Shown here: positions 25,891 to 40,144 of the stretch, piece by piece | How the letters are laid out: each line of letters starts with the position of its first letter | How positions within the stretch are numbered: the stretch's first letter is position 1 | From: an uncultured Rhodopila sp. | GTDB lineage: Bacteria; Pseudomonadota; Alphaproteobacteria; Acetobacterales; Acetobacteraceae | DNA length: 64,000 nt | Assembly: GCF_903915725.1 (NCBI RefSeq) | Contig: NZ_CAIWTY010000034.1 | Location: 1-64,000 of the forward strand | Direction: 5' to 3' | Notes under the pieces: model-generated | Told to the model about the DNA's origin: nothing | What the model saw: only the letters and a program-made list of their open reading frames with translations | Databases searched by the model: none | Made by a program: the position numbers and the translations under genes

Positions 25891-26934
25891 TCATCCCAGC
25901 CCGCGCACGATGAACGGGCCGACGGCATTGGCGACGGGCAGCGGCAGCCGCTTCCATGCGGCGATGAACAGCGCGTATTTCGGGTTCAGCGGATTGAGCT
26001 CGGGGATCGTCTCGCCGGGCTTCAGCTTGAACCGGTACTGCAGGTTTGCCGGCTCGAACCCCCAGTTGCGCTTGAATGCCAGCGCCCCGGTGCCGAGCTT
26101 GCTGCGGCCGAAATCGAACAGCCGGCAGCCGCGATCGGCCGCACGTCGCATCACTTCCCAATACATGAAATCGTTGCCGGCGCAGCCGCGCGCGGCCGCC
26201 GTGCCGCCGCCGTAATAGGGCAGCACCTCGTCGCGGAAATAGAAGTTCAGCACGGAGGTAACCGGCGTTTCCTTGTCGAAAACGGTCACCGCATCCGCGG
26301 CCTCGCCGAACACCTCCATCAATATGCGGAAGTAACGGCGCGAGAACACCGGCGTGCCGAGGTTGCGCACGCTCTCGGCATATACCCGGTGCAGCAGCCT
26401 GACATCGCGGTTCGCCACCGAGGTCAGGCCGTTCTGGATGCCCTTGCGCACCATCGCCCGCTGCTTGCGCGGGATGGCTTTCATGTTGGCATCATGGTCC
26501 CCGCCGATCGGCTTGCGGAACGTCACGTAAAGGTCGGGCCGCTCGACCCAGCCGTCGCCGGCAAGCGAAGCGGGCGAATCGCGGTAACGCAACTCCGCCG
26601 CCGAGGCGCCGGTGCGCGTCAACAGATCGCCGGCATGCGCCAGCAGCGCAGCCTCACTTTCCGCATCCGCGGCCAGCGCGCCGCCATAGACGCAGAACGG
26701 CGCGGATATCAGCGTGTCGCCGAACAGCCGGGTCTTCACCCGGGCCAGCGGCAGCACGCCGGTGATGGCGCCGTCGCGCTCGGCGAAGACGTAATGCGTG
26801 GCGTGGCCGAAGGCGGTTTCCACCACGCGGGCCCAGCCGGCGCGATGGAAAAACGTCCCCGCCGGCATCGCCAGCACGAAGCGGTCCCAGGCCGCTTCGC
26901 TGGCCTCCTCCAGCGGACGGACGATGACGGCCAC
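25891..26934 (-). CDS. FemAB-family XrtA/PEP-CTERM-associated protein
   Basis: A GNAT-fold FemAB-like protein, 347 residues from GTG 26934 (VAVIVRPLEEASEAAWDRF). Characteristic stretches include ITGVLPLARVKTRLFGDTLI, RKQRAMVRKGIQNGL and YWEVMRRAADRGCRLFDFGR, and the tail YRFKLKPGETIPELNPLNPK is typical of the XrtA-linked subfamily. The chosen start is 2 nt after the deacetylase stop. The longer open frame beyond it shadows the deacetylase gene. It is probably an aminoacyl- or acyl-transferase acting in surface-polymer assembly; the substrate is unknown. Confidence 0.9.
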   Translation of the reverse strand: MAVIVRPLEEASEAAWDRFVLAMPAGTFFHRAGWARVVETAFGHATHYVFAERDGAITGVLPLARVKTRLFGDTLISAPFCVYGGALAADAESEAALLAHAGDLLTRTGASAAELRYRDSPASLAGDGWVERPDLYVTFRKPIGGDHDANMKAIPRKQRAMVRKGIQNGLTSVANRDVRLLHRVYAESVRNLGTPVFSRRYFRILMEVFGEAADAVTVFDKETPVTSVLNFYFRDEVLPYYGGGTAAARGCAGNDFMYWEVMRRAADRGCRLFDFGRSKLGTGALAFKRNWGFEPANLQYRFKLKPGETIPELNPLNPKYALFIAAWKRLPLPVANAVGPFIVRGLG

Positions 26935-26936
26935 GG

Positions 26937-27806
26937 CTAGGCCCGCACGGTTTCGGCGGCGATGCCGGTCAGCATCGGCGCATAGACCCGGTCCATCCGG
27001 TCCCACGGAAAGTCCCGCAGCAACCGTTCCAGACTCGCCTGCATCCGCGACAGGTTGGTGTAGTGGCGCAGCCGGGATTTCAGCGGCGCGCCCGGCATCC
27101 GCGGCTGCCCGGGGTCGATCTCCCACGGGTGGAAGTAGAACACGCCCGGCTGGCGATCGCGCCGGTTCACCCGGGCGAGGCCGGCGCGGTACAGGCTGCT
27201 GGGCAGCAGGCGGAAATACCCCCCGCCCGAACAGGGCCAGTTGCGGCCGAGCAGACGCACGGTCGTCATCGGTATCTCCAGCACGCCCTCGGCATGCGGG
27301 AGAAACGGAACCCGCGGCGCATCCGGCATGCCGTAGATGTCGTGCCGGATCGGGTTGATGCTGGAACTGTAGATGTAGCCCTCCTGCCGCAGGATCGGGA
27401 ACACCCACATGTTGCGGTGGTTGATCGAGAACGTGGCGGCGCGATAACCGGTGACCCGCACGCCGCCGATATCCTCCAGCAGCGCCCGGGTGCGGCGGAT
27501 ATCGGTGCGGAACGTCTCGGGCGCCTGCATGTCGGCGCGGGTATGGTCCCAGCCATGGCTGGCCAGTTCATGCCCCTCATGCACCATGCGGCGGACGATG
27601 GCGGGGAACCGGTGCGCCACCCAGCCCAGGGTAAAGAATGTCGCCTTCACATCGGCGGCGGCGAACATGTCGAGGATGCGGTTGGTGTTCGCCTCCACCC
27701 GGCCGGGAAAGCCGTCCCAGTCGGCGCGGCCGACACAGCCGGCGAAAGCCTGGACCTGGAAATAGTCCTCCACGTCGACCGTCATGGCGTTCGTCAGCAC
27801 GGTCAT
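26937..27806 (-). CDS. XrtA-system polysaccharide deacetylase (DUF3473)
   Basis: A NodB-homology carbohydrate esterase of 289 residues. The metal-binding aspartate motif is MTVDVEDYFQ (residues 8-17). VKATFFTLGWVAHRFP follows, then the second metal motif in HELASHGWDHTR (about 78-89) and GYRAATFSI. The C-terminal DUF3473 segment contains VFYFHPWEIDPGQPRMPG. It would remove N- or O-acetyl groups from the exopolysaccharide. It overlaps the preceding ATPase gene by 4 nt (27803-27806), so the two are translationally coupled. Confidence 0.94.
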   Translation of the reverse strand: MTVLTNAMTVDVEDYFQVQAFAGCVGRADWDGFPGRVEANTNRILDMFAAADVKATFFTLGWVAHRFPAIVRRMVHEGHELASHGWDHTRADMQAPETFRTDIRRTRALLEDIGGVRVTGYRAATFSINHRNMWVFPILRQEGYIYSSSINPIRHDIYGMPDAPRVPFLPHAEGVLEIPMTTVRLLGRNWPCSGGGYFRLLPSSLYRAGLARVNRRDRQPGVFYFHPWEIDPGQPRMPGAPLKSRLRHYTNLSRMQASLERLLRDFPWDRMDRVYAPMLTGIAAETVRA

Positions 27807-28774
27807 GCCGCCTCGCCCGCCGCCTTGGCCTCGAGCAGATCCAGGATTCGGCGGGACATCGTCTCCTGGCGGGCGGCCAGCCGCTCGAGCGTTTCGATCC
27901 GCTGCGCCAGAGCGTCCGCCTCGGCCCCTGCCGCCGGAGCCGGCGCCGTCAGCCCGTCGCCGAGATCCTGGCGCAGCTCCTCGGCGGTGGTCTCGACAAT
28001 CGCCGCGTCGATCGCATGCAGTTCCTCCAGCGCGCCGAACAGCAGCACGCGGGAACAGAGCGTGTTGATGCGCCGCGGAATGCCGCCGGTGTTGCGATGC
28101 ACCGCCGCGAAGGCGTCGTCGCTCCAGGCCGGATCATTGTTCCAGCCGACGGTGCGCAGCCGGTGCTCGATATAGCCGCGCGTCTCGGCCTCGGTCAGCG
28201 GCCCGAGATGATACGACGCCAGCACGCGCTGGCGGAGCTGCTCGACATCCTTGCCGGCAAGTATCGGCCGGAACTGCGGCTGGCCCAGCAGGATCGTCTG
28301 CACCGAGGCGCGGCCATCGACGGTGATGTTGGACAGCATCCGCAGCTCCTCCATCGCCGCCAGCGACAGGTTCTGCACCTCATCGACGACCAGCAGGCAG
28401 CGGCGGCCCTGCTTGCGCTGGTCGCGCACCATGTGTTCGAAGCGGCGCAGCAGCGTTGCCTTATCGGTGCCGGGGGTTTCGCCGAGGCCGAAATTCGCCA
28501 TCGCCAGCCGCAACAGGTCGTCGCCGGAGACCTGCGTTGTCACGACGCGCGCCATGACATAGGTGGCACGGTCGAGCTGCGACCACATCTGCTCGACCAG
28601 CGTCGTCTTGCCGGCGCCGACTTCGCCGGTGATGACGATGAAGCCTTCCTGTTGCGACAGGCCGTAGACGAGGTGCGCGATTGCCCGGCTGTGCCCGCTC
28701 GATCCGAAGAAAAACCGCGAATCGGGCGTCAGCAGGAAGGGCAGACCGGACAGTTTGTAGAATGTTTCGAACAC
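27803..28774 (-). CDS. XrtA/PEP-CTERM-associated AAA ATPase
   Basis: 323 residues resembling GspA/ExeA-type ATPases. It opens MFETFYKLSGLPFLLTPDSR, with Walker A GEVGAGKTTLVEQM near residues 50-63 and Walker B RRCLLVVDEVQNLS near 118-131. A sensor region contains LLGQPQFRPIL, and a C-terminal coiled-coil follows (IETLERLAARQETMSRRI). Members are constant parts of XrtA exopolysaccharide loci and probably energise assembly or secretion; the precise role is not established. It overlaps the deacetylase start and follows the outer-membrane protein gene by 9 nt. Confidence 0.93.
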   Translation of the reverse strand: MFETFYKLSGLPFLLTPDSRFFFGSSGHSRAIAHLVYGLSQQEGFIVITGEVGAGKTTLVEQMWSQLDRATYVMARVVTTQVSGDDLLRLAMANFGLGETPGTDKATLLRRFEHMVRDQRKQGRRCLLVVDEVQNLSLAAMEELRMLSNITVDGRASVQTILLGQPQFRPILAGKDVEQLRQRVLASYHLGPLTEAETRGYIEHRLRTVGWNNDPAWSDDAFAAVHRNTGGIPRRINTLCSRVLLFGALEELHAIDAAIVETTAEELRQDLGDGLTAPAPAAGAEADALAQRIETLERLAARQETMSRRILDLLEAKAAGEAA

Positions 28775-28783
28775 TTTACCCTG

Positions 28784-30976
28784 TCAGAAGGACTTGGAGA
28801 TGCCGAGGATCAGCATATTCTCATAGAACGTGTAGGCGGTTACCTGCGCCTGGCGGGCGAAGAACGAATAGCGCAAACTGGCGCTGACGGTATCGGAAAT
28901 CTGATACTGCAGCCCGGCGCTGGCGGCTTCGGAATTGCTGTTGCCCGGGCCGCCCGAGCCCGCAACGCCATTCTGGATCGCATACGACACCGCGGCGCTG
29001 AGCATGAGACCGTCCCGCAACTGGTGCTGCCAGTTCCCGGTGACGCTGATCACCGTTCCGTTCGATGAAGACGAGCCGCTGCCGGCACGGGTCTGCCGCG
29101 TGTCCATCAGATTGATCGCGATGCTATCGCGGTCAAGAATCGTCTGCAGGCCGGCGGTAAGGGTGTCGTAGCGGAAAACGCCGTTCTGCACCGGCAGCGC
29201 ATTCGTGCCGGTGAACAACTGACCGCCGTTCTGGCCGTTGATCAGCGTGCCGTTGCCGCTCGCCGTCGCCAGGTTGATCTGGCTCTGCAGATTTTCGAGC
29301 TGGGTTCCGGTGGTCGATCCGTATGAAACGGTCAGCGTGGTGCGCCCGGTGATCGCATAGCGCCCGTTGACGGTCAAAGAGTTGTAGCCGTTCAGGTGGC
29401 CGTAGCTGACGGTCAGGTAGGTGTCCGGATCTGGGGTCAGCGTGGTGCCGAGGCTCCAGGTCAGGTCGTTGACGTTCAGGCCGCCAGGTTCGTTGTAGAC
29501 GATATTTTCATGACCGCCCGACCCGAACACCGCGACGGCGCGGTTGATCTGCCAGGTGACCTTGTCGGTAATGAAATCCCGGGTGGAGGTGTAGGTCTGG
29601 TTTGCCAGGGGCGCGCCGGTGGCGCCGTAGCCGTAGTTGGCGCCCGAGGTGGTCTGATTCTGCATCAGGTCGATATCGAAGCTGTTTTCCACCGGCTCCA
29701 GGAAGTCGCCGGTGGCGAAATGCGCGACCTCCTCATTGGACAGCAGCGTCTGGCTGTTGGCGCCGGAGCCGCTGAGGAACGGCGACGCCGCGAAGCCGGT
29801 CAACTCGTCCGACGCGGTGGCGTTGAAGGAATAACCGAGCTTGCCGGTTCCCCAGTCGCCAAACTGCCGCAACAGATAGGGTGAGACACCGAAACTGTTG
29901 GTCTGCACCTCGTTTGAGCGGCTCAGTCCGAGGCTATTTCCGGCCAGGCTGGGGGTGGTCGCCTGCATCGAGCCGACACCCGTGCTGGAGGCGCCGACGG
30001 TGCCCAGGCCCCCGACACCGCCGTAGAGATTGTGCACGCCGGCCAGGACGCGCACGTCGACGAAGGCGAGCTCGGGCACGACCGTGACCAGGCCGATGCC
30101 GTCCATCTGCTGCGTCAGCGCATTCATCGAGGTGGTGCGTGCGTAGAGAGACAGCGCCGGCGCATAGTCGAATGTCAGTTGCAGGCGCGGCAGGTCGCCG
30201 GCGACGTGAATGGCGGGCGAGAGATAGGTGGCCAGGTCCCATTGCCGCGGCTGGTTCGCCTGCAGCGCATTGTCGGTGAACATCTCCTGGAAATCGAGGC
30301 GCGGAACGATGGTCCAGCCGCCGCCCGGCGGCGCCGCCAGGCCGTTGGATAGCTGCAACTGATGCTTCAGATCCTGCGCATCCGGCGCGGCGAGTTCGGT
30401 GCCCTGCGGCACCTGATCCGCGTTCGATGGATCGATCAGCGGAAACGCGCCCGCGCGACCGCTTTGAACCGTCAGGAATACCGAGCCGAGCGATAGACCG
30501 AGAGCAATGCTCAAATACCGGCGGCAGACCAATGTTTCCGCTGAGGCGTGGTCCGCCGGCGGCTCAATACCGGATAACCAGGCGGACGGCGGCAGGCCGT
30601 GCCGATTGGCCGCGATCGTCGCGGCCTCCGATCCCGCGAATAGACTGACATCCCGGGACAAAGCGGCCGATGGTCCGGCCGCGAGGACCGCGAGGCCACG
30701 CGGCCGCGCGTCCGGCGATCCGGGCATGCGCACAGCGCACGGCGAAACCGCGAGACCACGGTGCTTCCGGCCCGGCGATGCGGTCATCGATCCTTTGGCC
30801 GCCACGGCCATGAGGCCACGCTGCCGCAGGCCCGGCGATCCGGGCATTCCTTCCGGCCCTGCCATGACGGAGAGGGCACGCTGCCGCATGCCCTGCGCCG
30901 CGGCTGCGGCCGCGCAATCGTTGCGATATCCTGGCCAGCCGCCCCGGACGGGACGCGGCGATCCGTTAGCGATCAT
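28784..30976 (-). CDS. TIGR03016-type XrtA-associated outer-membrane beta-barrel protein
   Basis: The C-terminal about 550 residues are a beta-rich, Gly/Asn/Thr-rich barrel ending in a terminal phenylalanine (LILGISKSF), as for outer-membrane proteins. A clear signal peptide lies at residues 149-176 (VCRRYLSIALGLSLGSVFL, cleaved after GRAGA). Upstream of it the frame carries about 148 extra residues with four 20-residue Arg/Gly/Pro repeats encoded by 60-bp tandem repeats. The real start may therefore be TTG 30532 at the signal peptide. ATG 30976 is the longest option and has a poor ribosome site. It probably forms the EPS outer-membrane channel or an anchor. Confidence 0.85.
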   Translation of the reverse strand: MIANGSPRPVRGGWPGYRNDCAAAAAAQGMRQRALSVMAGPEGMPGSPGLRQRGLMAVAAKGSMTASPGRKHRGLAVSPCAVRMPGSPDARPRGLAVLAAGPSAALSRDVSLFAGSEAATIAANRHGLPPSAWLSGIEPPADHASAETLVCRRYLSIALGLSLGSVFLTVQSGRAGAFPLIDPSNADQVPQGTELAAPDAQDLKHQLQLSNGLAAPPGGGWTIVPRLDFQEMFTDNALQANQPRQWDLATYLSPAIHVAGDLPRLQLTFDYAPALSLYARTTSMNALTQQMDGIGLVTVVPELAFVDVRVLAGVHNLYGGVGGLGTVGASSTGVGSMQATTPSLAGNSLGLSRSNEVQTNSFGVSPYLLRQFGDWGTGKLGYSFNATASDELTGFAASPFLSGSGANSQTLLSNEEVAHFATGDFLEPVENSFDIDLMQNQTTSGANYGYGATGAPLANQTYTSTRDFITDKVTWQINRAVAVFGSGGHENIVYNEPGGLNVNDLTWSLGTTLTPDPDTYLTVSYGHLNGYNSLTVNGRYAITGRTTLTVSYGSTTGTQLENLQSQINLATASGNGTLINGQNGGQLFTGTNALPVQNGVFRYDTLTAGLQTILDRDSIAINLMDTRQTRAGSGSSSSNGTVISVTGNWQHQLRDGLMLSAAVSYAIQNGVAGSGGPGNSNSEAASAGLQYQISDTVSASLRYSFFARQAQVTAYTFYENMLILGISKSF
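30661..30900. repeat. Four 60-bp tandem repeats
   Basis: The block GAGGCCACG...TCCGG/CCCGGCGAT recurs at exactly 60-bp spacing (GAGGCCACG-like cores at 30692, 30752, 30812 and 30872). The unit is a multiple of three and lies in the frame of the TIGR03016 gene, where each copy encodes about 20 residues of the type MPGSPxxRxRGLAV. The repeat ends at about 30900. Confidence 0.75.
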
Positions 30977-31011: not shown

Positions 31012-32160
31012 CTACGACGAGTAGTACGAAGAGTACGCGCCGAACGTGTAGCGGGACGAAATCTGCTGCTTGTTCAGAACCAACGTGATGGTCGGGCAGG
31101 CCTGGATCAGGTCGAGCGAGGCCTCGATCTCATCGCGCTGGGTGCGGTCCGCCTCCACCACGAACAGGATCTGGCCGACAACCTGCGCGAGCACCGCCGG
31201 GTCGCTGGTGGACAGGCACGGCGGCGCGTCCAGCACCAGCAGCCGATCGGCGTAGCGGCGGCCGAGGCTCTGGATCAGGCGGGTCATTTCCTTGGTGGAG
31301 AACAACTCCGCGCTGCGCTCGCGCTCCCGCCCGACCGGCAAGATCGACAGCCGCTCGATCGGCGTCTTGACGATCAAAGGGGCCGGATCGAGCTTGGGAT
31401 TGGCGGCGAGGTCGAGCAGGCCGCGCGCCTGCGCCAGCCCGAGGCTGTAGCAGATCGAGTCGCGCTTGGAGTCGGCATCGACCAGCAACACGTGATGGTC
31501 GCCCTGCCGCGCGATGCTGCCCGACAGGTTGGTGGACATGAAGCTCTTGCCCTCGCCTGGACGCGCGCTGGTGACCATCAGCAGATTGGAAAACCCGGGT
31601 TCGGCGCCCGGTCCGAAGGCGGATCGCAGGATCTGGCGTTGCACCAGCCGGAATTCTTCCGAGATGCGGGTGCGGGTGCGCGACCAGTCGACCATCCCGG
31701 CGCGTTCCAGCGACATGGCGTCGATCGACTGCGGCGCCTGCAGCAGCCCGGACGGCGGCTCGGATACGGCTGCGCGCTGTATCCCGGGGGGCATCCCGGG
31801 CGACGCGACGGAACGGTCGGGCGTCGCGGCTGGCGATCCGGACTGGAGCCCGAACGAAGCCGCAGCCGATCGGCCAAGCATGCCCGGCGCCGGCAAGGCG
31901 CCCGGGCGGGGCATTGCACCGGCCCCCGGGTCAACAGGCGGCGGGGCGAACGAGGTGGATGGCCGCGACGGCTGAGCGGCGGCACGCGGGCTGGATGCCG
32001 CCTGCCCGGCCGTTTCCACGGCCGGAGCAGGCGTCTCCTCATTCGGCGGGGCCGAATTGCCGGGCTGCATGAGCTGCGAAGCCGTATCGTCCAGCGCGCC
32101 GGAGCGCAGCAGGCGTTCGGCGGCCCGTTCGACCAGATGGGATGCCTTCGGTATCAGCAT
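31012..32160 (-). CDS. XrtA-associated tyrosine autokinase
   Basis: A BY-kinase cytoplasmic domain. Walker A TSARPGEGKSFMSTNLS, Walker A' VLLVDADSKRDS and Walker B RLLVLDAPPCLS lie in the C-terminal 200 residues. A tyrosine cluster ends the protein (YTFGAYSSYYSS) and is the expected autophosphorylation site. Residues about 35-150 are a disordered Pro/Ala/Ser-rich linker. The start is ATG 32160 with GAAGG about 10 nt upstream, rather than the TTG at 32169. It pairs with the chain-length protein encoded just upstream to control polymer length and export. Confidence 0.92.
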   Translation of the reverse strand: MLIPKASHLVERAAERLLRSGALDDTASQLMQPGNSAPPNEETPAPAVETAGQAASSPRAAAQPSRPSTSFAPPPVDPGAGAMPRPGALPAPGMLGRSAAASFGLQSGSPAATPDRSVASPGMPPGIQRAAVSEPPSGLLQAPQSIDAMSLERAGMVDWSRTRTRISEEFRLVQRQILRSAFGPGAEPGFSNLLMVTSARPGEGKSFMSTNLSGSIARQGDHHVLLVDADSKRDSICYSLGLAQARGLLDLAANPKLDPAPLIVKTPIERLSILPVGRERERSAELFSTKEMTRLIQSLGRRYADRLLVLDAPPCLSTSDPAVLAQVVGQILFVVEADRTQRDEIEASLDLIQACPTITLVLNKQQISSRYTFGAYSSYYSS

Positions 32161-32260
32161 GCACCGCAAACCTTCACGTCGATGATATCGGGGATGCGGC
32201 GCCGGGAAATGACTTCCCGAAACGTGCGGGGCGAGGCCGGCGAAATCCGGGAGCGGGCCA

Positions 32261-33823
32261 CTAGATCAGCGCCGCCGAGCGCAGCAGGTGGATCATGAGG
32301 CCGCCATAGACACCGACCAGCACGGCGACCGCCGCGCCGAAACGCAGCGCCGACATCAATCGCAGGCGCAGCGGCACCAGGCCGAGGATCGAGATGCCGC
32401 CGAGAACCGGCAGGCCGAGCGAGCGCAGCTCATCGACGGTGGAGAATGACCGGTCGAGCTGGCCGATGAGCACGGTGACGCCGACGCCGGCCGCCATGCC
32501 GCCCAGCAGCACCACGCTGACCAGCATCAGTCGATTGGGCGCCACCGGCAAACGGGGAATCTCCGGCGGATCGATGACCTGCAGCTTCACTTTGTCGGCC
32601 TGGGTGTCGGCAGCCTGGGCGATATTGGCCGACTGCAGGCGGCCCAGCAGATCTTCATAATTGCGGCGCAGAACGGTATAGTCGCGATCCATGTTCTGGT
32701 ACTCCGCGATCAGCCCCGGCTGGTCGCGCTGCACTTTTTCCAGCCGCTCGCGGTAGGCCACCGCTTCGTCGCGTTGGCGTTGCAATGAAGTAACGGTGGA
32801 TTCGGCTTCGATCAGCTTGACCTTGAGCTGTTCGTAAACCTGGTTCGGCACTGAATGCCTGACCTCGCCCGCGTCGCGGCCGCCGGACGCGGCCTTGCCG
32901 GCGGGTTCGGCGGGTGCTTCGCCCGGGGCGCTGCGCAAGGATTCGATCAGCTTGCGCTGGGCGATAACGTCGGGGTGCTTGTCGGTGTCCCGCAGCAACA
33001 GCATGCGGAGATCCTCCTCGGCCTGCTGCAATTTGGTTTTGACCGGCTGACCGTTGGCCGCGGTCGCCAAACCGCCGCTGTCCGTCACCAGCATGGGCGG
33101 CGTATTGTCGACCTCCTGCTTCAGCGCGTCGCGCGATACCGCCGCGTCCTGCAATTTGCCCTCCGCCTGCTGCGCCGCGCTGCGCGCGCTTTCCAGCGCC
33201 GGCACGTTCGGCGAGTCGCTGCTGGGCAGCACCTCGATGTAGCGGCTGCGGAAGTCGGCACGGCGCTTTTCGGCGGCGCGAAGCTGCTGCTCGTAGGACT
33301 GGATCTGCCGCTCCAGGAATCGCCTGGCGTTCTCCATCTCGGTTCGCGAGCCGCCGGTGGCACTTTCGACGAAGATGGTGAGCAGGGTCTGGACCACGTC
33401 GTGCGCCAGTTTCGCGTTGGTGTCCCGGTACGTGATGGTGAACAGGTTCTTGGTCTGCGGACTGACCTTTATTTCGGTTGCCAGGCGGCTCAGCAGCCGC
33501 TCCCGGTCCGACGGTCCGTTCAAAGCGAGGTCGAGGTCGGTCTTGGAGATCAGCTTTTCCAGGTTGGGCCGGCTGAGCAGGGTTTTCTGGATGATTTCGA
33601 GCTGCGTCGTCGGCGCCGAGTCGGCGGCGATGCCGCGCAGCAGCGGAGTCAGCACGGCATCGGCATCGACGTACAGCCGAGCGCTGGACTCGAACTGATT
33701 CGGGATCGAGTAGACGCCGACCCAGCCGAGGCCGCAGACCAGCCAGGCGACGATGACGCCCAGCCAGCGGCGGCGCCAGGCCGCGCGCAAATACTGCGAG
33801 ATGATGAGACGAATGGCATCCAT
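32261..33823 (-). CDS. XrtA-system polysaccharide chain-length determinant (Wzz/EpsF-like)
   Basis: A 520-residue polysaccharide co-polymerase. An N-terminal membrane helix (WLGVIVAWLVCGLGWVGVY, about 20-38) is followed by the Wzz domain and a long coiled-coil periplasmic region (about 160-390, rich in Gln/Glu/Arg). The second helix lies near 428-450 (LMLVSVVLLGGMAAGVGVTV) and a short C-terminal helix ends the protein. It lacks the kinase domain, which is a separate downstream gene. It follows the export lipoprotein gene by 12 nt. Confidence 0.93.
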   Translation of the reverse strand: MDAIRLIISQYLRAAWRRRWLGVIVAWLVCGLGWVGVYSIPNQFESSARLYVDADAVLTPLLRGIAADSAPTTQLEIIQKTLLSRPNLEKLISKTDLDLALNGPSDRERLLSRLATEIKVSPQTKNLFTITYRDTNAKLAHDVVQTLLTIFVESATGGSRTEMENARRFLERQIQSYEQQLRAAEKRRADFRSRYIEVLPSSDSPNVPALESARSAAQQAEGKLQDAAVSRDALKQEVDNTPPMLVTDSGGLATAANGQPVKTKLQQAEEDLRMLLLRDTDKHPDVIAQRKLIESLRSAPGEAPAEPAGKAASGGRDAGEVRHSVPNQVYEQLKVKLIEAESTVTSLQRQRDEAVAYRERLEKVQRDQPGLIAEYQNMDRDYTVLRRNYEDLLGRLQSANIAQAADTQADKVKLQVIDPPEIPRLPVAPNRLMLVSVVLLGGMAAGVGVTVLIGQLDRSFSTVDELRSLGLPVLGGISILGLVPLRLRLMSALRFGAAVAVLVGVYGGLMIHLLRSAALI

Positions 33824-33835
33824 GGCGCGCGCGCC

Positions 33836-34591
33836 CTAGAACCAGGATTGCGGGATGATCAGCGTGTCACCCGCTTTCATTTCGACATTCTGGCTGATGT
33901 CGCCATCCTTGATGAGATCGGCGAGGCGGACCTTGATGATCTGCTGCTTGCCCTCCGGTTCGAGCCGGACGATCGTGGCGCGGTTGCCGGAGGCATATTT
34001 GGTCAGGCCCTTGGTCGCGATCATGACATCGAGCAGCGTCATGTGGTCGCGATACGGGATCGCCACGGGTTCGGACGCCTCGCCGATGACCCGCACCTGC
34101 CGATCGGCCGGGCCGATGAAGCTGCGGACGATGACGGTGACGTTGGGGTCCTGGACGTATTTGCCGAGCTTCTGCTCGACCTCGCGGGCGAGCTGCGTCG
34201 GGGTCTTGCCGGCGGCAACGATGTCCTCGATCAGCGGGGTGGAGATCCGCCCGTCGGGCCGCACGGCGACCGAGGCTTCGCTGAGATCGGGGTTGCGGTA
34301 GACGAACACGCTGAGCGAGTCGCCGGAGCCGATGATGTAGTCCTCGGCGGAGACGGCGGCGCCACCATCTGGCGGCTTCGGCGCGGACTCCGGCTTTGGC
34401 GAGCCGGTGCCGCACCCCGCGGCGGCCAGCAGCAACGGGATGGCGGCGGCGAGGCGGATTGCGGCCGAGACCGTGCCGATGCGCCGCGCTGCCGGTCCCG
34501 AAGCGGCCCGCATGGCCGGAGCGCGTGTCGGTTCGAGAGCAGTGCGGGACGCGATGTCTTTTCCGATCTGTTCGGGCGGTGCTTGAATCAC
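33836..34591 (-). CDS. XrtA-system exopolysaccharide export lipoprotein (Wza-type)
   Basis: The 251-residue protein has a lipobox LLLAAAGCGTG (Cys near residue 60), then the polysaccharide export domain with DYIIGSGDSLSVFVYRNPDL and one SLBB domain (QVRVIGEASEPVAIPYRDHM). It forms the outer-membrane export ring. The start is GTG 34591 with GAGG 5 nt upstream, giving a long basic N-terminal region before the lipobox helix. An internal ATG at about 34513 would give a more usual signal peptide. It is the first gene of the minus-strand operon. Confidence 0.92.
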   Translation of the reverse strand: MIQAPPEQIGKDIASRTALEPTRAPAMRAASGPAARRIGTVSAAIRLAAAIPLLLAAAGCGTGSPKPESAPKPPDGGAAVSAEDYIIGSGDSLSVFVYRNPDLSEASVAVRPDGRISTPLIEDIVAAGKTPTQLAREVEQKLGKYVQDPNVTVIVRSFIGPADRQVRVIGEASEPVAIPYRDHMTLLDVMIATKGLTKYASGNRATIVRLEPEGKQQIIKVRLADLIKDGDISQNVEMKAGDTLIIPQSWF

Positions 34592-34676: not shown

Positions 34677-34750
34677 TGGTAGGCGCGGAAGGAATCGAAC
34701 CCCCTCTTCTGCCGAGTTGAGGCAGCGCTCTGCCAATGAGCTACACGCCT
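34677..34750 (-). tRNA. tRNA-like cloverleaf with encoded CCA and atypical anticodon loop
   Basis: Read on the minus strand. Acceptor AGGCGTG pairs with CGCGCCT, with a discriminator A and encoded CCA. The D-arm is GCTC-ATTGGCA-GAGC, the anticodon stem CTGCC/GGCAG, a 4-nt variable region follows, and the T-arm is GGGGG-TTCGATT-CCTTC. All stems pair (two wobbles in the T-stem). The 7-nt anticodon loop is TCAACTC: position 33 is C rather than the near-universal U, and position 37 is a pyrimidine. By position the anticodon would be AAC. It is either a decayed tRNA or a tRNA-like RNA; I do not assign an amino acid. Confidence 0.6.
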
Positions 34751-35186
34751 TCGGTTTCCCCGGTCCGGATACGCGGGAAAGATAATACCGATCAGTACAA
34801 CCTCGCCCGTTCGTGATGGTGCCTATAACACCGTGTTTGCGGCGTTTCAACGCGGACGTAATAGGAAATTGTTGCCGGGTCCATTTTGTTCGAAAATACG
34901 TATTTTGTGCCAAAAATTGCGACACCCGGAGAAATGACGGCGCCGCGTCGTCCCAATTTTTATACGATTTGAACCGTGCTGCGCTCGTAGTTTCTATATC
35001 AATATAATGAAACATGTATGATTAATCCGGAAATCCGTTGACCGGCATGCGGGAATGTGTAACGTTCCTCCCCGTTATCGCTTGGGGGCCGGCAGCGGAT
35101 CGCAACAGGACGACAGAGCCCGCCGCGCCGGGATGTCGCATCAAGTTCAAAAAATCAGACCGGGCGGGTTGAAAGGACAGCATTTG
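34751..35186. other. A/T-rich divergent region between the two XrtA transcription blocks
   Basis: About 436 nt without a gene. From about 34780 to 35030 the sequence is strongly A/T-rich compared with flanks. It contains a TATAAT at 35003-35008, but I see no matching -35. The block probably holds the promoters of the plus-strand glycosyltransferase gene and of the minus-strand operon, plus PrsR sites. A small palindrome GCGCCGGC-AATC-GCCGGCGC (34619-34638) lies between the tRNA-like element and the export gene. Confidence 0.45.
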
Positions 35187-36524
35187 ATGCAGCGCGCATT
35201 GGCACATTACGTGCCCCGCGAAATGGCCGTGCTCGGCCTCGTCGAACTCGCGTTGTCGTTCCTCGTCATCTACATCGTCATGACGCTTTCCGGCACGCCG
35301 GACTGGATGCTCGGCAGCCTCGGCCCGCTGCCGGGAGCCTCCGCCGTGCCGGCCGCCTTGCTCGCCCTCGCCATCGGCATCGTCGCCCTACCCATCGGCT
35401 TGTATCAGCCGGAGGTGTGTTTCGACCGCGCCCGCCTGCTGCCGGCGACCTGCCTCGCCGCCGGATTGATCTTCGCCGTCATGCTGGTGTTCGGCGGCAG
35501 CATCACGCTCGACCGCGCCCTGGAAACCGCCCGTCTCTGCGCCGCCGGGCTGGCGACGATGACGCTGATCCGCGTGGCCTGGGGACTCGACGTCATCCGC
35601 AACGCCATGGTCAGGCCGATCCTGGTCCTGGGCAGCGCGCCTGAGGCGGCCGCGTTCAAGGCCGCCCTGAAGACACGCCGCGGACGCAACTTCTCGCTCG
35701 CCACCATGCAGGGCGGCGATGCCTCCTGGCCGGCGCTGCGCCGGCAGGGCGTCTGGGGCGTCGTAATCGCATCCGGCATGGACGAGCGGACCGCGGCGGC
35801 GATGCTCGACTGCAAGCTGCGCGGCCTTCCGGTGCACAGCGTTGCGGCCTTCCACGACCGCTATCTCGGCCGCGTCGATCTCGCCTCGCTGACCGCGGCC
35901 GGCCTGCTCGCCGGCGAGGGATTTGCGCGCGGACCCGCATCCGCCGCGATCAAGCGATGCTTCGACATCGTCATCGCCATCTGCATCCTGCTGTTCACCT
36001 TGCCGCTCATGAGTGCCGCCGCTTTGGCGATCAAGCTCGACAGCCCGGGACCGGTGTTCTACCGGCAGAAGCGCATCGGCCGCTTCGGCGCGACCTTCAC
36101 GATGCTGAAGTTCCGCAGCATGACCGCCGATGCCGAGGCCTGCGGCAAGCCGCGCTGGGCGCAAAGGAAGGACCCGCGCATCACCCCTGTCGGCCGCTTC
36201 ATCCGCGCCTCGCGCATCGACGAGCTGCCGCAACTGACGAACATCATACGCGGCGAAATGAGCCTGGTGGGACCGCGGCCGGAGCGGCCGCACTTCGTCA
36301 CGCAACTGTCCGAAGCGATCCCGTTCTACCACCAGCGGAGCTATGTCAAACCCGGCCTGACGGGCTGGGCGCAGGTCAACTACCCGTACGGCGCATCGGT
36401 CGAGGATGCGCGCGAGAAGCTCGCCTACGACCTGTATTACGTCAAGCACCGCTCGGTCTGGCTCGATCTGATCATTCTGATGGAGACGGTTCGCGTGGTG
36501 CTGTTCCGCGACGGCGCGCGCTGA
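35187..36524 (+). CDS. TIGR03013-type XrtA-system priming glycosyltransferase
   Basis: 445 residues from ATG 35187 (MQRALAHYVPREMAVLGL), preceded by GAAAGGA nine nt upstream. Four N-terminal helices (about 15-135) are followed by a CoA-binding-like segment and the C-terminal bacterial sugar transferase domain. That domain carries KRCFDIVIAICILLFTLPLM, PVFYRQKRIGRFGATFTMLK, PRITPVGRFIRASRIDELPQ and GEMSLVGPRPERPHF. It transfers the first sugar phosphate to undecaprenyl phosphate to begin exopolysaccharide repeat assembly. The PrsK gene follows after 144 nt. Confidence 0.94.
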   Translation: MQRALAHYVPREMAVLGLVELALSFLVIYIVMTLSGTPDWMLGSLGPLPGASAVPAALLALAIGIVALPIGLYQPEVCFDRARLLPATCLAAGLIFAVMLVFGGSITLDRALETARLCAAGLATMTLIRVAWGLDVIRNAMVRPILVLGSAPEAAAFKAALKTRRGRNFSLATMQGGDASWPALRRQGVWGVVIASGMDERTAAAMLDCKLRGLPVHSVAAFHDRYLGRVDLASLTAAGLLAGEGFARGPASAAIKRCFDIVIAICILLFTLPLMSAAALAIKLDSPGPVFYRQKRIGRFGATFTMLKFRSMTADAEACGKPRWAQRKDPRITPVGRFIRASRIDELPQLTNIIRGEMSLVGPRPERPHFVTQLSEAIPFYHQRSYVKPGLTGWAQVNYPYGASVEDAREKLAYDLYYVKHRSVWLDLIILMETVRVVLFRDGAR

Positions 36525-36668: not shown

Positions 36669-38723
36669 ATGACCATCATCCTCGATGGTCCGCTGTTTGT
36701 GGGGCTGCACGCCGCATGTGCCCTGGTCTACGGTTCGCTCGCGGTGCTGATCCTGACGCGCCCGCCGTTCAGCCGAACCGGCATCTGGCTCGTCACCGGC
36801 TGCCTGGGCACCGCGTGCTGGGCGGCCGCGGTCGCCGCGTCCTGGCAGTTTCCGCTCGGCCAACTGCCGGGCTGGCTGGAGATCGGCCGCGCCGCGGCGT
36901 GGTACGGGTTCATCCTGCACCTCTACCGGCGCTCAGCCGGGGATGACGGCCAGCTCGCGGCGGCGTTCAGGACGATGGGACTGCTGGCGCTGCTGGTCGT
37001 GTGCGGCACGCCTTTGCTCGACTGGCTGTCCGGCGCAAGCGGCGGCGCCTTGCCGTCGCTGGCGACCGCTGTGCGGCTCGGCTTCGCCGTCTGCAACGTG
37101 CTGCTGCTGGAAAACCTGTATTTCAACACCCCGTCGGACACGCGCTGGAACATCAACCTGCTCTGCGTCGCGCTTGGCGGCCTGTTTCTCTATGATTTGC
37201 TGCTTTACGCCGACGCGGTGCTGTTCCACCGGCTGTCGTTCGCGCTGCTGGAAGCACGGGCTCCGGCAACGATCCTCGCCGCGCCGCTGATCGCCATGGC
37301 CGCGGTGCGCAACCGGCGTTGGGCCATCGATATCCACGTCTCACGCGATGTCGTCTTCCACAGCTTCACCCTGATCGCCAGCGGCATCCTTCTGCTGGCG
37401 GTGGCGCTTGTCGGCGAGATTCTCCGCCAGGGCGGATCGGAATGGGGCCGGGTCGCCGAGACCTCGCTGATCTTCGGCGGCATCCTGGCCGTCGCCGTGA
37501 CGCTCACCTCGGGCTCGGCGCGGTCCCGTATCCGGTCGATGGTGGTGGATAACTTCTATAGTCATCGGTATGACTATCGCCGGGAGTGGATGCGCTGCAT
37601 CGACGCGCTGACCGCGCCCGACACCTTCGTCCCGCTGCACAAGCGGGCGATCTGCGCCGCGGCCGAGGTGGTCGACAGTCCCGCCGGCGCTTTGTTCGTC
37701 CGCCCGCCGCAGGATGTCGCCTTTCAATGGGGCGGATCCTGGAACATGCCGGCGGTCGGCGCCCCGGTTCCGCCCGGCCATCCCCTGGTCGCGCTGTTGC
37801 ATGGCCGGGAGTCGATCGTCCGGCTGGACCAGCATGAGGATTCGCCGGGCTGGCTGCCGGAGCTGCCCCGCGCCTGGATCGTACTGCCGCTCAATCATTC
37901 CGGTAGCCTGATTGGGTTTGTCGTCCTCGGGCGATCACGGGCGCAGTTCAAACTGGACCAGGAGGCGTACGACCTGCTACGGGTGGTTGGTCACGAAATC
38001 GCGAGCCGCGTGGCCGAGCAGCGGGCGATGCAGATCCTGACACAGACCCGCGAGCTTCGCGAATACGGACAGCGCTTCGCCTTTGTTATCCACGATATCA
38101 AGAACGTTTCCGGACAGCTTTCCATGCTTTTGGCCAATGCCGAGGTTTACGCTGACAATCCGGAGTTCCAGCGTGACATGCTGGCGACGGTCAGGGCCTC
38201 CGTCGGCAAGATTACCCGGCTGCTGTCCCGCCTGCAGGCGGACCGCCAGGAAAGAAACCACGCCCTGATAACGCCTTCCGAACGCCTGCGCGACCTGACG
38301 GGTTTTTACCGGCTTACCACCAGCCGGACAATCGTGGTGCAGGATCATTCCGAGGGCGCCGGCGCTGCGATCGACCCCGACGCGTTCGACGCGGTCGTCG
38401 CCCACCTGCTGACCAACGCTGTGGAGGCATCATCCGGCGTGATCCGGGTCGATCTGGGTGTGGAAGCCGCCGGACTGATAGTGGACATCATCGACGAGGG
38501 ACCGGGCATGGCGCCGGAATACGTCCGTGACGAGTTGTTCCGCCCGTTGCGGACCTCCAAGGCCGAGGGTCATGGCATCGGTGCCTACCAGGCACGCGAA
38601 ATGCTGCGCGCGGCGGGCGGCGACCTGCTGGTTCTCAGCAAGCCCGGGGCGGGAACCACGATGCGGATGATTCTGCCCGCGTTGCGGCCCGAAGTCGTGG
38701 CACCGGCAACGGTCGAAGCATGA
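36669..38723 (+). CDS. prsK: XrtA/PEP-CTERM-system histidine kinase
   Basis: 684 residues. The N-terminal about 280 residues hold seven to eight membrane helices. A GAF-like domain lies at about 310-450, the H-box is FVIHDIKNVSGQLSMLLANA with His475, and the C-terminal HATPase has VDIIDEGPGMAPEYV and EGHGIGAYQAREML. This arrangement is that of PrsK, the sensor kinase of exosortase A loci. The stop overlaps the prsR start by 4 nt (38720-38723), so kinase and regulator are co-translated. Confidence 0.94.
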   Translation: MTIILDGPLFVGLHAACALVYGSLAVLILTRPPFSRTGIWLVTGCLGTACWAAAVAASWQFPLGQLPGWLEIGRAAAWYGFILHLYRRSAGDDGQLAAAFRTMGLLALLVVCGTPLLDWLSGASGGALPSLATAVRLGFAVCNVLLLENLYFNTPSDTRWNINLLCVALGGLFLYDLLLYADAVLFHRLSFALLEARAPATILAAPLIAMAAVRNRRWAIDIHVSRDVVFHSFTLIASGILLLAVALVGEILRQGGSEWGRVAETSLIFGGILAVAVTLTSGSARSRIRSMVVDNFYSHRYDYRREWMRCIDALTAPDTFVPLHKRAICAAAEVVDSPAGALFVRPPQDVAFQWGGSWNMPAVGAPVPPGHPLVALLHGRESIVRLDQHEDSPGWLPELPRAWIVLPLNHSGSLIGFVVLGRSRAQFKLDQEAYDLLRVVGHEIASRVAEQRAMQILTQTRELREYGQRFAFVIHDIKNVSGQLSMLLANAEVYADNPEFQRDMLATVRASVGKITRLLSRLQADRQERNHALITPSERLRDLTGFYRLTTSRTIVVQDHSEGAGAAIDPDAFDAVVAHLLTNAVEASSGVIRVDLGVEAAGLIVDIIDEGPGMAPEYVRDELFRPLRTSKAEGHGIGAYQAREMLRAAGGDLLVLSKPGAGTTMRMILPALRPEVVAPATVEA

Positions 38724-40144
38724 GCGGCAGCCGTACGGCCAATCCCAGGCTGCTGATCGTCGAGGACGACGACGGACTCTGCTCGCAGTATCGCTGGGCA
38801 TTTCCCGGGTGCAACGTACTGCTGGCGCATGCCAGGGCCCAGGCGGTGGCGCTGGTGAAGCGGGAGTTCCCCCCGGTCGCCATCATGGACCTTGGATTGC
38901 CGCCCGACCCGGACGGGGTGAGCGAGGGCTTCGCCACGCTCGAGGAAGTGCTGCGCATCGCACCGCAGACCAAGGTGATCGTCGTCACGGGCAACGGCGA
39001 GCGCAAGACCGCGCTGCGGGCGATCGCCTCCGGTGCCTATGATTTCTGCGAAAAACCGGTCGAGATCGAGGTGCTGCGGACGATCATCGATCGCGGCCTC
39101 AACCTGCACCGGCTGGAAGAGGAAAACCGCCGCATGGCCGTCGCCCCGGGGATTTCGCCGATCGCGCGGATTGTCACCGGCGACCCCGGAATGCTGAAAA
39201 TCTGTCGTGATATCGAAAAGATTGCCCCGACCAGTGTTCCCGTGCTGCTGCTGGGCGAAAGCGGCACCGGCAAGGAGGCGCTGGCGCGGGCGGTGCATGA
39301 TCTCGGGCAGCGTGCGAAAAACCCCTTCGTCGCGCTCAACTGCGGCGCCATCCCGGAAAACCTGCTGGAAAGCGAGTTGTTCGGGCACGAACGGGGGGCT
39401 TTCACCGGCGCGGTGAAACAGTCCATCGGCAAGATCGAGCTGGCTCATACCGGCACGTTGTTTCTGGATGAGGTGGGCGACCTGCCGCATCCGCTGCAGG
39501 TCAAGCTGCTGCGGTTCCTGCAGGACCAGATCGTCGAGCGAGTCGGCGGGCGGCAGAAGATCCAGGTCGATGTCCGTATCGTTTCGGCCACAAACGCAAA
39601 TCTGGAAGAAAAGATCAACCGCGGGGTGTTCCGCGGTGATCTGCTGTACCGGATGAACGCCTTCACCGTTCGCGTGCCGCCGCTGCGCGCGCGCGGTTCC
39701 GACATCATCCTGCTGGCCAATTTCTTCTTGAATCGTTTCAACCAGGAGTTCGGCCGCCGGATGCGCGGCTTCACCGACGAGGCCGGCGCCGCGATGATGG
39801 CGCATGACTGGCCCGGCAACGTGCGCGAACTGGAGAACCGGCTCAAGCGCGCCGTGGTGATGTCGGAACACCGCATGATCGATGCCGCCGATATGGAACT
39901 GTCGCCGCGCGAAGGCGGCATACCGGATCTCGACCTGCGAACCGCGCGGCTGCGCGCGGAGAACCACGTGATCAAGGCGGCGATGGCGCGCAGCAACAAC
40001 ACCTTGTCGCTGGCGGCCAGGCTGTTGGGCGTCAGCCGCCCGACGCTCTACGGCCTGCTGGAGGCTCATGGACTCATTAACGAAACCGTAAGACCCGGAG
40101 ACGGCGCCCGCCAGGCGGCCGCGGTTCCGGACGAAACGGCATAG
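38720..40144 (+). CDS. prsR: PEP-CTERM-box response regulator, sigma-54 activator
   Basis: 474 residues. The receiver domain has phospho-acceptor Asp57 (IMDLGLPPDPDG). The AAA+ domain has Walker A GESGTGKEALARAVHD (about 180) and the sigma-54-contacting GAFTGA (about 226). A Fis-type helix-turn-helix closes the protein (NNTLSLAARLLGVSRPTLYG). It would activate sigma-54 promoters of EPS and PEP-CTERM genes in response to PrsK. No convincing -24/-12 site was found directly upstream of the XrtA operons. Confidence 0.95.
   Translation: MSGSRTANPRLLIVEDDDGLCSQYRWAFPGCNVLLAHARAQAVALVKREFPPVAIMDLGLPPDPDGVSEGFATLEEVLRIAPQTKVIVVTGNGERKTALRAIASGAYDFCEKPVEIEVLRTIIDRGLNLHRLEEENRRMAVAPGISPIARIVTGDPGMLKICRDIEKIAPTSVPVLLLGESGTGKEALARAVHDLGQRAKNPFVALNCGAIPENLLESELFGHERGAFTGAVKQSIGKIELAHTGTLFLDEVGDLPHPLQVKLLRFLQDQIVERVGGRQKIQVDVRIVSATNANLEEKINRGVFRGDLLYRMNAFTVRVPPLRARGSDIILLANFFLNRFNQEFGRRMRGFTDEAGAAMMAHDWPGNVRELENRLKRAVVMSEHRMIDAADMELSPREGGIPDLDLRTARLRAENHVIKAAMARSNNTLSLAARLLGVSRPTLYGLLEAHGLINETVRPGDGARQAAAVPDETA

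Follow-up and report, generated by a model that had tools for sequence, protein, structure and literature searches.

A conserved tRNA-Val-like element at the front of XrtA exopolysaccharide operons in Acetobacteraceae

As judged by sequence comparison, the tRNA at positions 34677–34750 (minus strand) of the window, by which we mean the whole 64-kb stretch of DNA analyzed, belongs to a tRNA family that is conserved within Acetobacteraceae, and its copy in the window is not a product of recent decay. The tRNA is located upstream of EpsE, the first gene of an XrtA exopolysaccharide operon. From the pattern of constant and variable nucleotides, the family RNA is very probably a charged tRNA that is not bound to decoding. 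Our best explanation as a whole, to which we give slightly less than an even chance, is a dedicated leader valyl-tRNA that would be co-transcribed with the operon, charged, and most likely used as a donor by the FemAB protein encoded at the operon end.

ARAGORN found a single tRNA within the 64-kb window, at exactly these coordinates, and typed it as tRNA-Val with anticodon AAC. It matched the Rfam cloverleaf RF00005 with 50.2 bits (gathering score 29, E 8.8e-08), which places it in the tRNA class; no broken pairs were marked, and the T-loop TTCGATT and CCA are both encoded. The anticodon loop reads U32 C33 A34 A35 C36 U37 C38 (UCAACUC; DNA TCAACTC). C33 replaces U33 and U37 replaces the purine at 37, so that the window tRNA lacks both marks of a decoding elongator. 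The original prediction, which described fully paired stems, an intact T-loop and CCA, and a TCAACTC loop devoid of U33 and of a purine at 37, was borne out in all these respects. Among the 42 other distinct tRNAs read from the source genome (43 with the window copy), U33 is present in 41 and a purine at 37 in 42; ordinary valine tRNAs elsewhere in the genome have the anticodons UAC, GAC, and CAC. Sequence error is an unlikely cause of the odd loop, because the identical tRNA occurs in one further genome (G006; L002 and L061) and a close loop, UCAACCC, in another (G024; L062 and L143). The same genome contains a tRNA-Ile (GAU) with G33 and two T-stem mismatches (L096; G000:C104:2606-2678), which lies on a contig of <10 kb and may be another unusual tRNA of this organism or belong to foreign DNA.

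Related copies were collected in three ways. A DNA (BLAST) search of 98 genomes, the source genome included, gave matches in 28, of which 25 contain 27 family loci; the other three matching genomes contribute a 24-base fragment at a contig end (G031) and ordinary tRNAs (G072 and G075). Of the 30 places returned by this search, L026 and L027 (ordinary tRNA-Trp and tRNA-Gly) and L028 (the 24-base fragment) were left out. At L087 (G031:C106), an XrtA operon lies near the contig end and the match consists of 24 bases of the 3′ part of the tRNA. A pattern scan of a named genome collection gave 54 family loci, most labeled Acetobacteraceae, Rhodospirillales, Rhodopila, Acidisphaera sp. S103, or Limobrevibacterium gyesilva, and some under other depositor names (Proteobacteria, Alphaproteobacteria, Asaia bogorensis, and Nitrosovibrio); these loci overlap with the genomes of the DNA search, and they are not counted as evidence for A35–C36 because the pattern itself demanded it. 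Finally, a covariance model (R1) built from 48 distinct sequences, all with A35–C36, was run on 299 Acetobacteraceae genomes and returned 59 copies in 58 genomes, with scores of 81.7 to 99.6 bits (96.4 bits for the window tRNA). Neither the BLAST search (27 loci) nor the model search (59 copies) demanded A35–C36, and every locus and copy they gave has it. Among the R1 matches listed, the next score at most 79.1 bits and were taken as ordinary tRNAs; 20 of these, read singly, are ordinary valine tRNAs, a 75-bit match in G182 proved to be a damaged member of the family (L213), and a few further family copies may hide at these scores. In a sample of 200 genomes from the order, all 10 matches, among those listed, belong to the family of the window organism, Acetobacteraceae. 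In other alphaproteobacteria, ARAGORN found no tRNA near EpsE-type genes in any of the 29 genomes scanned, out of 30 other matching genomes of a class sample, four of these 29 being below the EpsE family cutoff and some loci ending at contig ends.

Over the 59 model copies, A35, C36, and A73 are each invariant (59/59). U33 is present in 44 and missing from 15, CCA is encoded in 28, and a pyrimidine occupies position 37 in 7; position 34 is U, C, or A, and G34 was never seen (0/59). A73 persists also in copies that have no CCA behind it; G73 occurs in one genome not represented among the 59 copies (L073 and L120, the same sequence). Of the cultured carriers, Acidisphaera sp. S103 has two copies with G33 (L102 and L117), and the copy of Limobrevibacterium gyesilva RN2-1 (L133) has U33 but no encoded CCA. 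Mapped onto a FastTree phylogeny of 55 EpsE proteins, the tRNA positions from 32 through 38 require 12, 14, 15, 0, 0, 4, and 9 changes, and the U33/non-U33 state requires nine, with no change of A35, C36, or A73. This tree rests on one protein, mixes both locus sources, and uses identical EpsE sequences once; dropped from it were loci with a short EpsE (L073, L079, L118, L120, and L124), with no EpsE match (L076, L105, L146, and L182), or with a tRNA missed by the regular expression (L080, L086, and L179). Ordinary valine tRNAs of relatives have U33 in 20 of 20 cases (12 distinct). The constancy of A35, C36, and A73, together with the variability of U33 and CCA, suggests that the RNA is matured, charged with valine, and partly freed from decoding.

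A section of PMC9976931 gives the bacterial ValRS identity set as A73, G3–C70, U4–A69, A35, and C36. The family carries A35, C36, and A73 along with G3–C70 (48/48 distinct sequences) and has C4–G69 (48/48) in place of U4–A69, for which reason we call the element tRNA-Val-like. The three ordinary valine tRNAs of the source genome and 17/20 of those of relatives likewise have C4, which therefore does not discriminate here. At other listed valine elements, the window copy has C in place of G20 and A at 45. Within the T stem, G–U pairs occupy both 50–64 and 51–63 (G50–U64 and G51–U63) in 54/59 family copies. This double G–U is absent from those ordinary valine tRNAs of relatives whose T stem was correctly indexed (L282 and L283 were mis-indexed) and occurs in none of the other tRNAs of the source genome (the T stem of L090 was mis-indexed), so that the EF-Tu contact pairs are unlike those of ordinary isoacceptors, as looked for in a donor of the Fem type. 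In PMC8219837, 50–64 and 51–63 are counted among the three pairs that affect EF-Tu binding most strongly; our guess is that G–U pairs there weaken it. The 15–48 tertiary pair is, over 55 copies, U–A in 18, A–U in 14, G–C in 11, G–U in 4, and other in 8, and because it is mostly kept, the L-shape seems to be kept as well. The stems hardly vary among relatives, and the tRNA body is nearly invariant (mean column identity 91 percent over 48 distinct sequences). This same invariance leaves almost no covariation evidence; one pair has changed on both sides, and 59 of 500 shuffles attained as much.

Many bacteria have XrtA/PEP-CTERM exopolysaccharide operons. The position of the tRNA relative to such operons is nearly constant: 58/59 model copies are closely followed by EpsE in the same orientation, at a distance of 114 to 478 nt from its family domain, the sole exception being in G032, with no EpsE match. 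In 25/26 contexts of the DNA-search set and in 52/54 pattern loci, two sets that overlap, EpsE comes directly after the tRNA and shares its strand. A copy is present in 57/111 genomes with an EpsE match versus 1/188 without. In the window, the operon runs along the minus strand from the EpsE-type XrtA exopolysaccharide export protein (33836–34591; TIGR03027, 236.3 bits, cutoff 180) through the XrtA chain length determinant (32261–33823; TIGR03007, 454 bits), the XrtA-associated tyrosine autokinase (31012–32169; TIGR03018, 209.3 bits, below the cutoff of 230.65), the PEP-CTERM system outer membrane protein (28784–30976; TIGR03016, 98.5 bits, cutoff 90.85), the XrtA-associated ATPase (27803–28774; TIGR03015, 335.3 bits, cutoff 324.5), and the XrtA polysaccharide deacetylase (26937–27806; TIGR03006, 420.6 bits; PF01522) to the XrtA FemAB protein (25894–26895 as the family-matched stretch; TIGR03019, 448.7 bits), the candidate user of the tRNA. 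A FemAB-family gene had been predicted in the same locus, and this is the gene in question. Its mechanical ORF (25891–27408) reaches too far at the start and there runs into the deacetylase gene in a different frame; similarity to the FemAB family sets in near 26895. On the plus strand, outside the tRNA transcript, lie the divergent XrtA glycosyltransferase (35055–36524; TIGR03025, 364.1 bits, cutoff 295.55; TIGR03013, 376.3 bits, below the cutoff of 393.35), the PrsK histidine kinase (36669–38723; TIGR02916, 534.9 bits), and the PrsR response regulator (38720–40144; TIGR02915, 614.5 bits). Elsewhere, the XrtA operon of L082 (G049:C474) is split, with EpsE, the chain length gene, and the tRNA on one strand and the FemAB half several kilobases off on the other. 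Three genomes (G019, G025, and G156) have two tRNA–EpsE loci each; the second locus of G025 (L066) matches the window operon only partly.

Upstream of the window tRNA, a sigma-70-like candidate promoter at 34824–34850 on the minus strand, recognized by its motifs and fixed spacing, comprises TTGAAA (34845–34850) and GTTATA (34824–34829), its near end 73 bp and its far end 100 bp from the tRNA. A TTGAA/TATA pair at fixed spacing is found in 19/27 loci (19/23 of the window genus and 0/4 of other genera), by a pattern that was written after the sequences were seen and hence was not blind to them. Loose promoter scoring gave 8 or more in 35/70 family leaders versus 81/350 shuffled ones. By eye, an inverted repeat like CTCAC-N6-GTGAG, a candidate operator or 5′ hairpin, stands just 3′ of the −10 motif, near the expected transcription start, in L065, L068, L069, and L086. 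EpsE start candidates follow base 73 by 38 nt in L075, L125, and L138, by 41 nt in L074, and by 88 nt in the window, where the candidate is a GTG with AGAGG ahead of it. Such short spacing would hardly accommodate a terminator together with another promoter, and from it we infer that the tRNA and the operon are probably one transcript from one promoter. A terminator scan 3′ of the tRNA, a scan without power, scored 6/70 family copies versus 1/44 ordinary tRNAs of the genome.

The window FemAB (25894–26895) was aligned with 20 relatives and modeled (pLDDT 88.9). In a profile search of solved structures, it matched S. aureus FemX (3.5e-11) and two aminoacyl-tRNA-dependent peptide synthases (1.9e-06 and 5.9e-06). 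Foldseek placed FemX, Sbb17, Sba18, FemA, and MprF or A-PGS structures at ranks 1 to 15 and an acetyl-CoA enzyme 16th, with TM scores of 0.66 to 0.70 by query length and up to 0.79 by target length (Sbb17/Sba18). The model has the double-GNAT fold closest to FemX and, on this basis, the operon FemAB is closest to aminoacyl-tRNA-dependent enzymes. It is alike in predicted fold to FemX (1xf8 and 6snr), Sbb17 (9wqw), and Sba18 (9wqy), and K275, within (F/Y)KxNWG, is invariant in 21/21 proteins and aligns with FKK of S. aureus FemX. Lys305 is named as the catalytic lysine of Weissella FemX in part of PMC12945691, and we read K275 as its possible counterpart, by way of the S. aureus FemX alignment. 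The window FemAB differs from the FemX family in that the Pfam FemAB profile PF02388 gives 23.1 bits, just below the cutoff of 24 (PF13480 is above its cutoff), and we accordingly file it as FemX-like and not as a family member; PF02388 matches 20/21 of the aligned proteins at E up to 0.01 (best 1.7e-08). Streptothrisamine, with which the Sbb17 structure was solved, contains an amino sugar whose amine is free. FemAB is present in 56/57 EpsE-positive genomes with the tRNA versus 47/54 without (Fisher p 0.029, kinship uncorrected), or in 50/54 of the latter when three weak matches are included, and being common without the tRNA, FemAB does not need the family tRNA. Literature searches found no description of a substrate of the XrtA FemAB.

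Several known systems resemble parts of this arrangement. Non-proteinogenic tRNA-Gly isoacceptors are used by FemX, FemA, and FemB in S. aureus; tRNA-ProX occurs in alphaproteobacteria; and in E. coli tufB and metY-nusA, tRNA genes are cotranscribed with protein genes, decoding tRNAs thereby accompanying translation or transcription genes. Like those of E. coli, the family tRNA stands ahead of a protein gene, but that gene belongs to an exopolysaccharide operon. The S. aureus isoacceptors, as parts of PMC4052509 describe them, are extra isoacceptors for non-ribosomal use of the Fem type, the use proposed here for the family, with T-stem changes that are thought to weaken EF-Tu binding, as the T-stem G–U pairs of the family may do; they serve glycine and Gram-positive cell wall bridges and have GG at 18–19 replaced, whereas the family is of valine type, occurs in Acetobacteraceae, and keeps GG. 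Also unlike them, the family tRNA is often devoid of U33 and leads an operon coding for a Fem-like protein. Valine-type viral tRNA-like structures, compared through portions of a published description (PMC9976931), share the conserved A35 and C36 and are valylated RNAs outside translation, as the family RNA may be, but they are the 3′ ends of viral RNAs, whereas the family has the canonical cloverleaf and is placed in the 5′ leader of a bacterial operon. The ThrRS mRNA, in the same portions of that paper, has a tRNA-like element in a bacterial 5′ leader that mimics the anticodon loop for synthetase binding; the family element, in contrast, is a complete tRNA with A73 kept. A natural bacterial tRNA without U33 is tRNA-ProX (A33 and A34), whose anticodon and identity disagree according to part of PMC11415595, whereas both are valine in the family tRNA. 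Our searches of PubMed Central articles, which include few subscription papers or bioRxiv preprints, gave no recognizable report of a tRNA in an XrtA operon, and the word tRNA is absent from the text of the PEP-CTERM/EpsH paper of 2006 (PMC1569441).

We propose that a conserved, dedicated valine-type tRNA (A35, C36, A73, and G3–C70) at the front of the XrtA operon would be transcribed with EpsE from one promoter, as the spacing suggests, and that, as conservation suggests, it would be released by the standard tRNA-processing enzymes, would receive CCA where its gene has none, and would be a substrate of valyl-tRNA synthetase. Good decoding would no longer be required of it in the window lineage and in several more, as the loss of U33 indicates. 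The FemX-like FemAB would then, most likely, hand valine to a non-ribosomal acceptor, perhaps an amino sugar laid bare by the neighboring deacetylase. We give the tRNA about an even chance of being the donor for FemAB. That the valine goes to a freed amino sugar is a reasonable guess in view of the adjoining deacetylase, and the full scenario, in which a valyl-tRNA that has departed from translation shares a transcript with a FemX-like enzyme that would place valine onto a de-N-acetylated amino sugar to yield a valinylated matrix, is put forward tentatively. The original prediction had offered, among its readings, a tRNA with another role such as FemAB donor. The other role gains from the constraint pattern and from the nearness of FemAB to aminoacyl-tRNA-dependent enzymes; the tie between the tRNA and FemAB is one that we infer, since most XrtA genomes without an intact tRNA have FemAB. 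Further points against our explanation are that in L082 the tRNA stays with EpsE and not with FemAB, that extra tRNA copies go with extra EpsE loci, that EpsE persists in genomes whose tRNA is damaged or lacks any match, that the 44 copies with U33 could still decode, that the promoter motif is missing in 8/27 loci (including 4/4 from other genera), that the window copy departs from the valine set at 4–69, 20, and 45, and that the near-invariant stems lend almost no covariation support. A leader tRNA with valine identity but often no U33 suggests that FemAB is aminoacyl-tRNA-dependent and that valine is the first amino acid to try; if this were true, the family would be a rare natural variation that separates the parts of a tRNA used for charging from those used for decoding.

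The presence of FemAB without the tRNA and the behavior of the tRNA in L082 leave room for a role in cis, a possible but rather doubtful reading, in which excision of the tRNA by RNase P and 3′ enzymes would determine where the mRNA of the EpsE operon begins, how stable it is, or how it is translated, or binding of ValRS would couple the operon to valine or to charging. Such a role would fit the strict EpsE linkage (58/59 copies) and the way in which tRNA copies follow EpsE copies and the tRNA remains with EpsE in the split operon, and the ThrRS mRNA offers a known precedent of a tRNA-like leader bound by the synthetase that the mRNA encodes (in part of PMC9976931). Processing alone, however, should not need a never-changing A35–C36, a synthetase-binding operator need not keep A73 without CCA or an unbroken acceptor stem, both of which are kept, and EpsE is retained in some genomes whose tRNA is damaged. 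Pairing of the anticodon loop with the EpsE leader, at 5.23 versus 5.06 for swapped pairs over 70 loci, was slightly above that of the swapped pairs (p 0.047, kinship uncorrected) and was not accepted. That the element is an auxiliary decoding tRNA-Val, co-expressed with the operon and under looser rules since the cell can do without it, we regard as improbable. The U33 retained in 44/59 copies, in loops such as AUUACAU or UUUACAU, favors it, as do natural bacterial tRNAs with A33 or G33, although G33 seems to curtail decoding by one of them (part of PMC11415595). The genome, however, already has valine tRNAs UAC, GAC, and CAC, and relaxation should also hit A35, C36, A73, and the 15–48 pair, which never change or, in the case of 15–48, are mostly kept while the U33 state changes nine times; damaged copies do show relaxation at such sites, and G34 is absent throughout.

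A regulatory small RNA or a source of tRNA fragments, charged incidentally and acting on polysaccharide genes or their regulator, is quite unlikely: the place at the operon front and the variable loop flanks would suit it, but only A35–C36 is fixed in the loop, so that no common target sequence is visible there. Decay or an integration-site remnant without function, the other readings offered by the original prediction, is highly improbable. U33 is absent from the window loop, and damaged copies occupy the same place in some genomes; the window copy, however, has no broken stem pair, keeps A35, C36, A73, the elbow, and the 15–48 pair across many species, and belongs to the nearly invariant set described above. 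Recent decay of the window copy was rejected on this cross-species conservation, the damaged copies of other lineages having broken pairs. An integration-site remnant was likewise discarded, as the same downstream gene follows in 58/59 copies and no integrase was found among the 10 neighboring proteins scanned in the window. We inspected the leaders of 13 of the 54 genomes that have EpsE but no high-scoring copy: in five, the same place holds a match with broken pairs that scores 44 to 75 bits, one has a faint trace of 12 bits (L211), and seven have no match. Damaged copies are those of L212, L213, L216, L218, L220, and L080; the copy of L080 (G014) scores 67 bits, and the 75-bit copy of G182 (L213) is still called a tRNA by ARAGORN. 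The tRNA element can thus be lost while EpsE stays.
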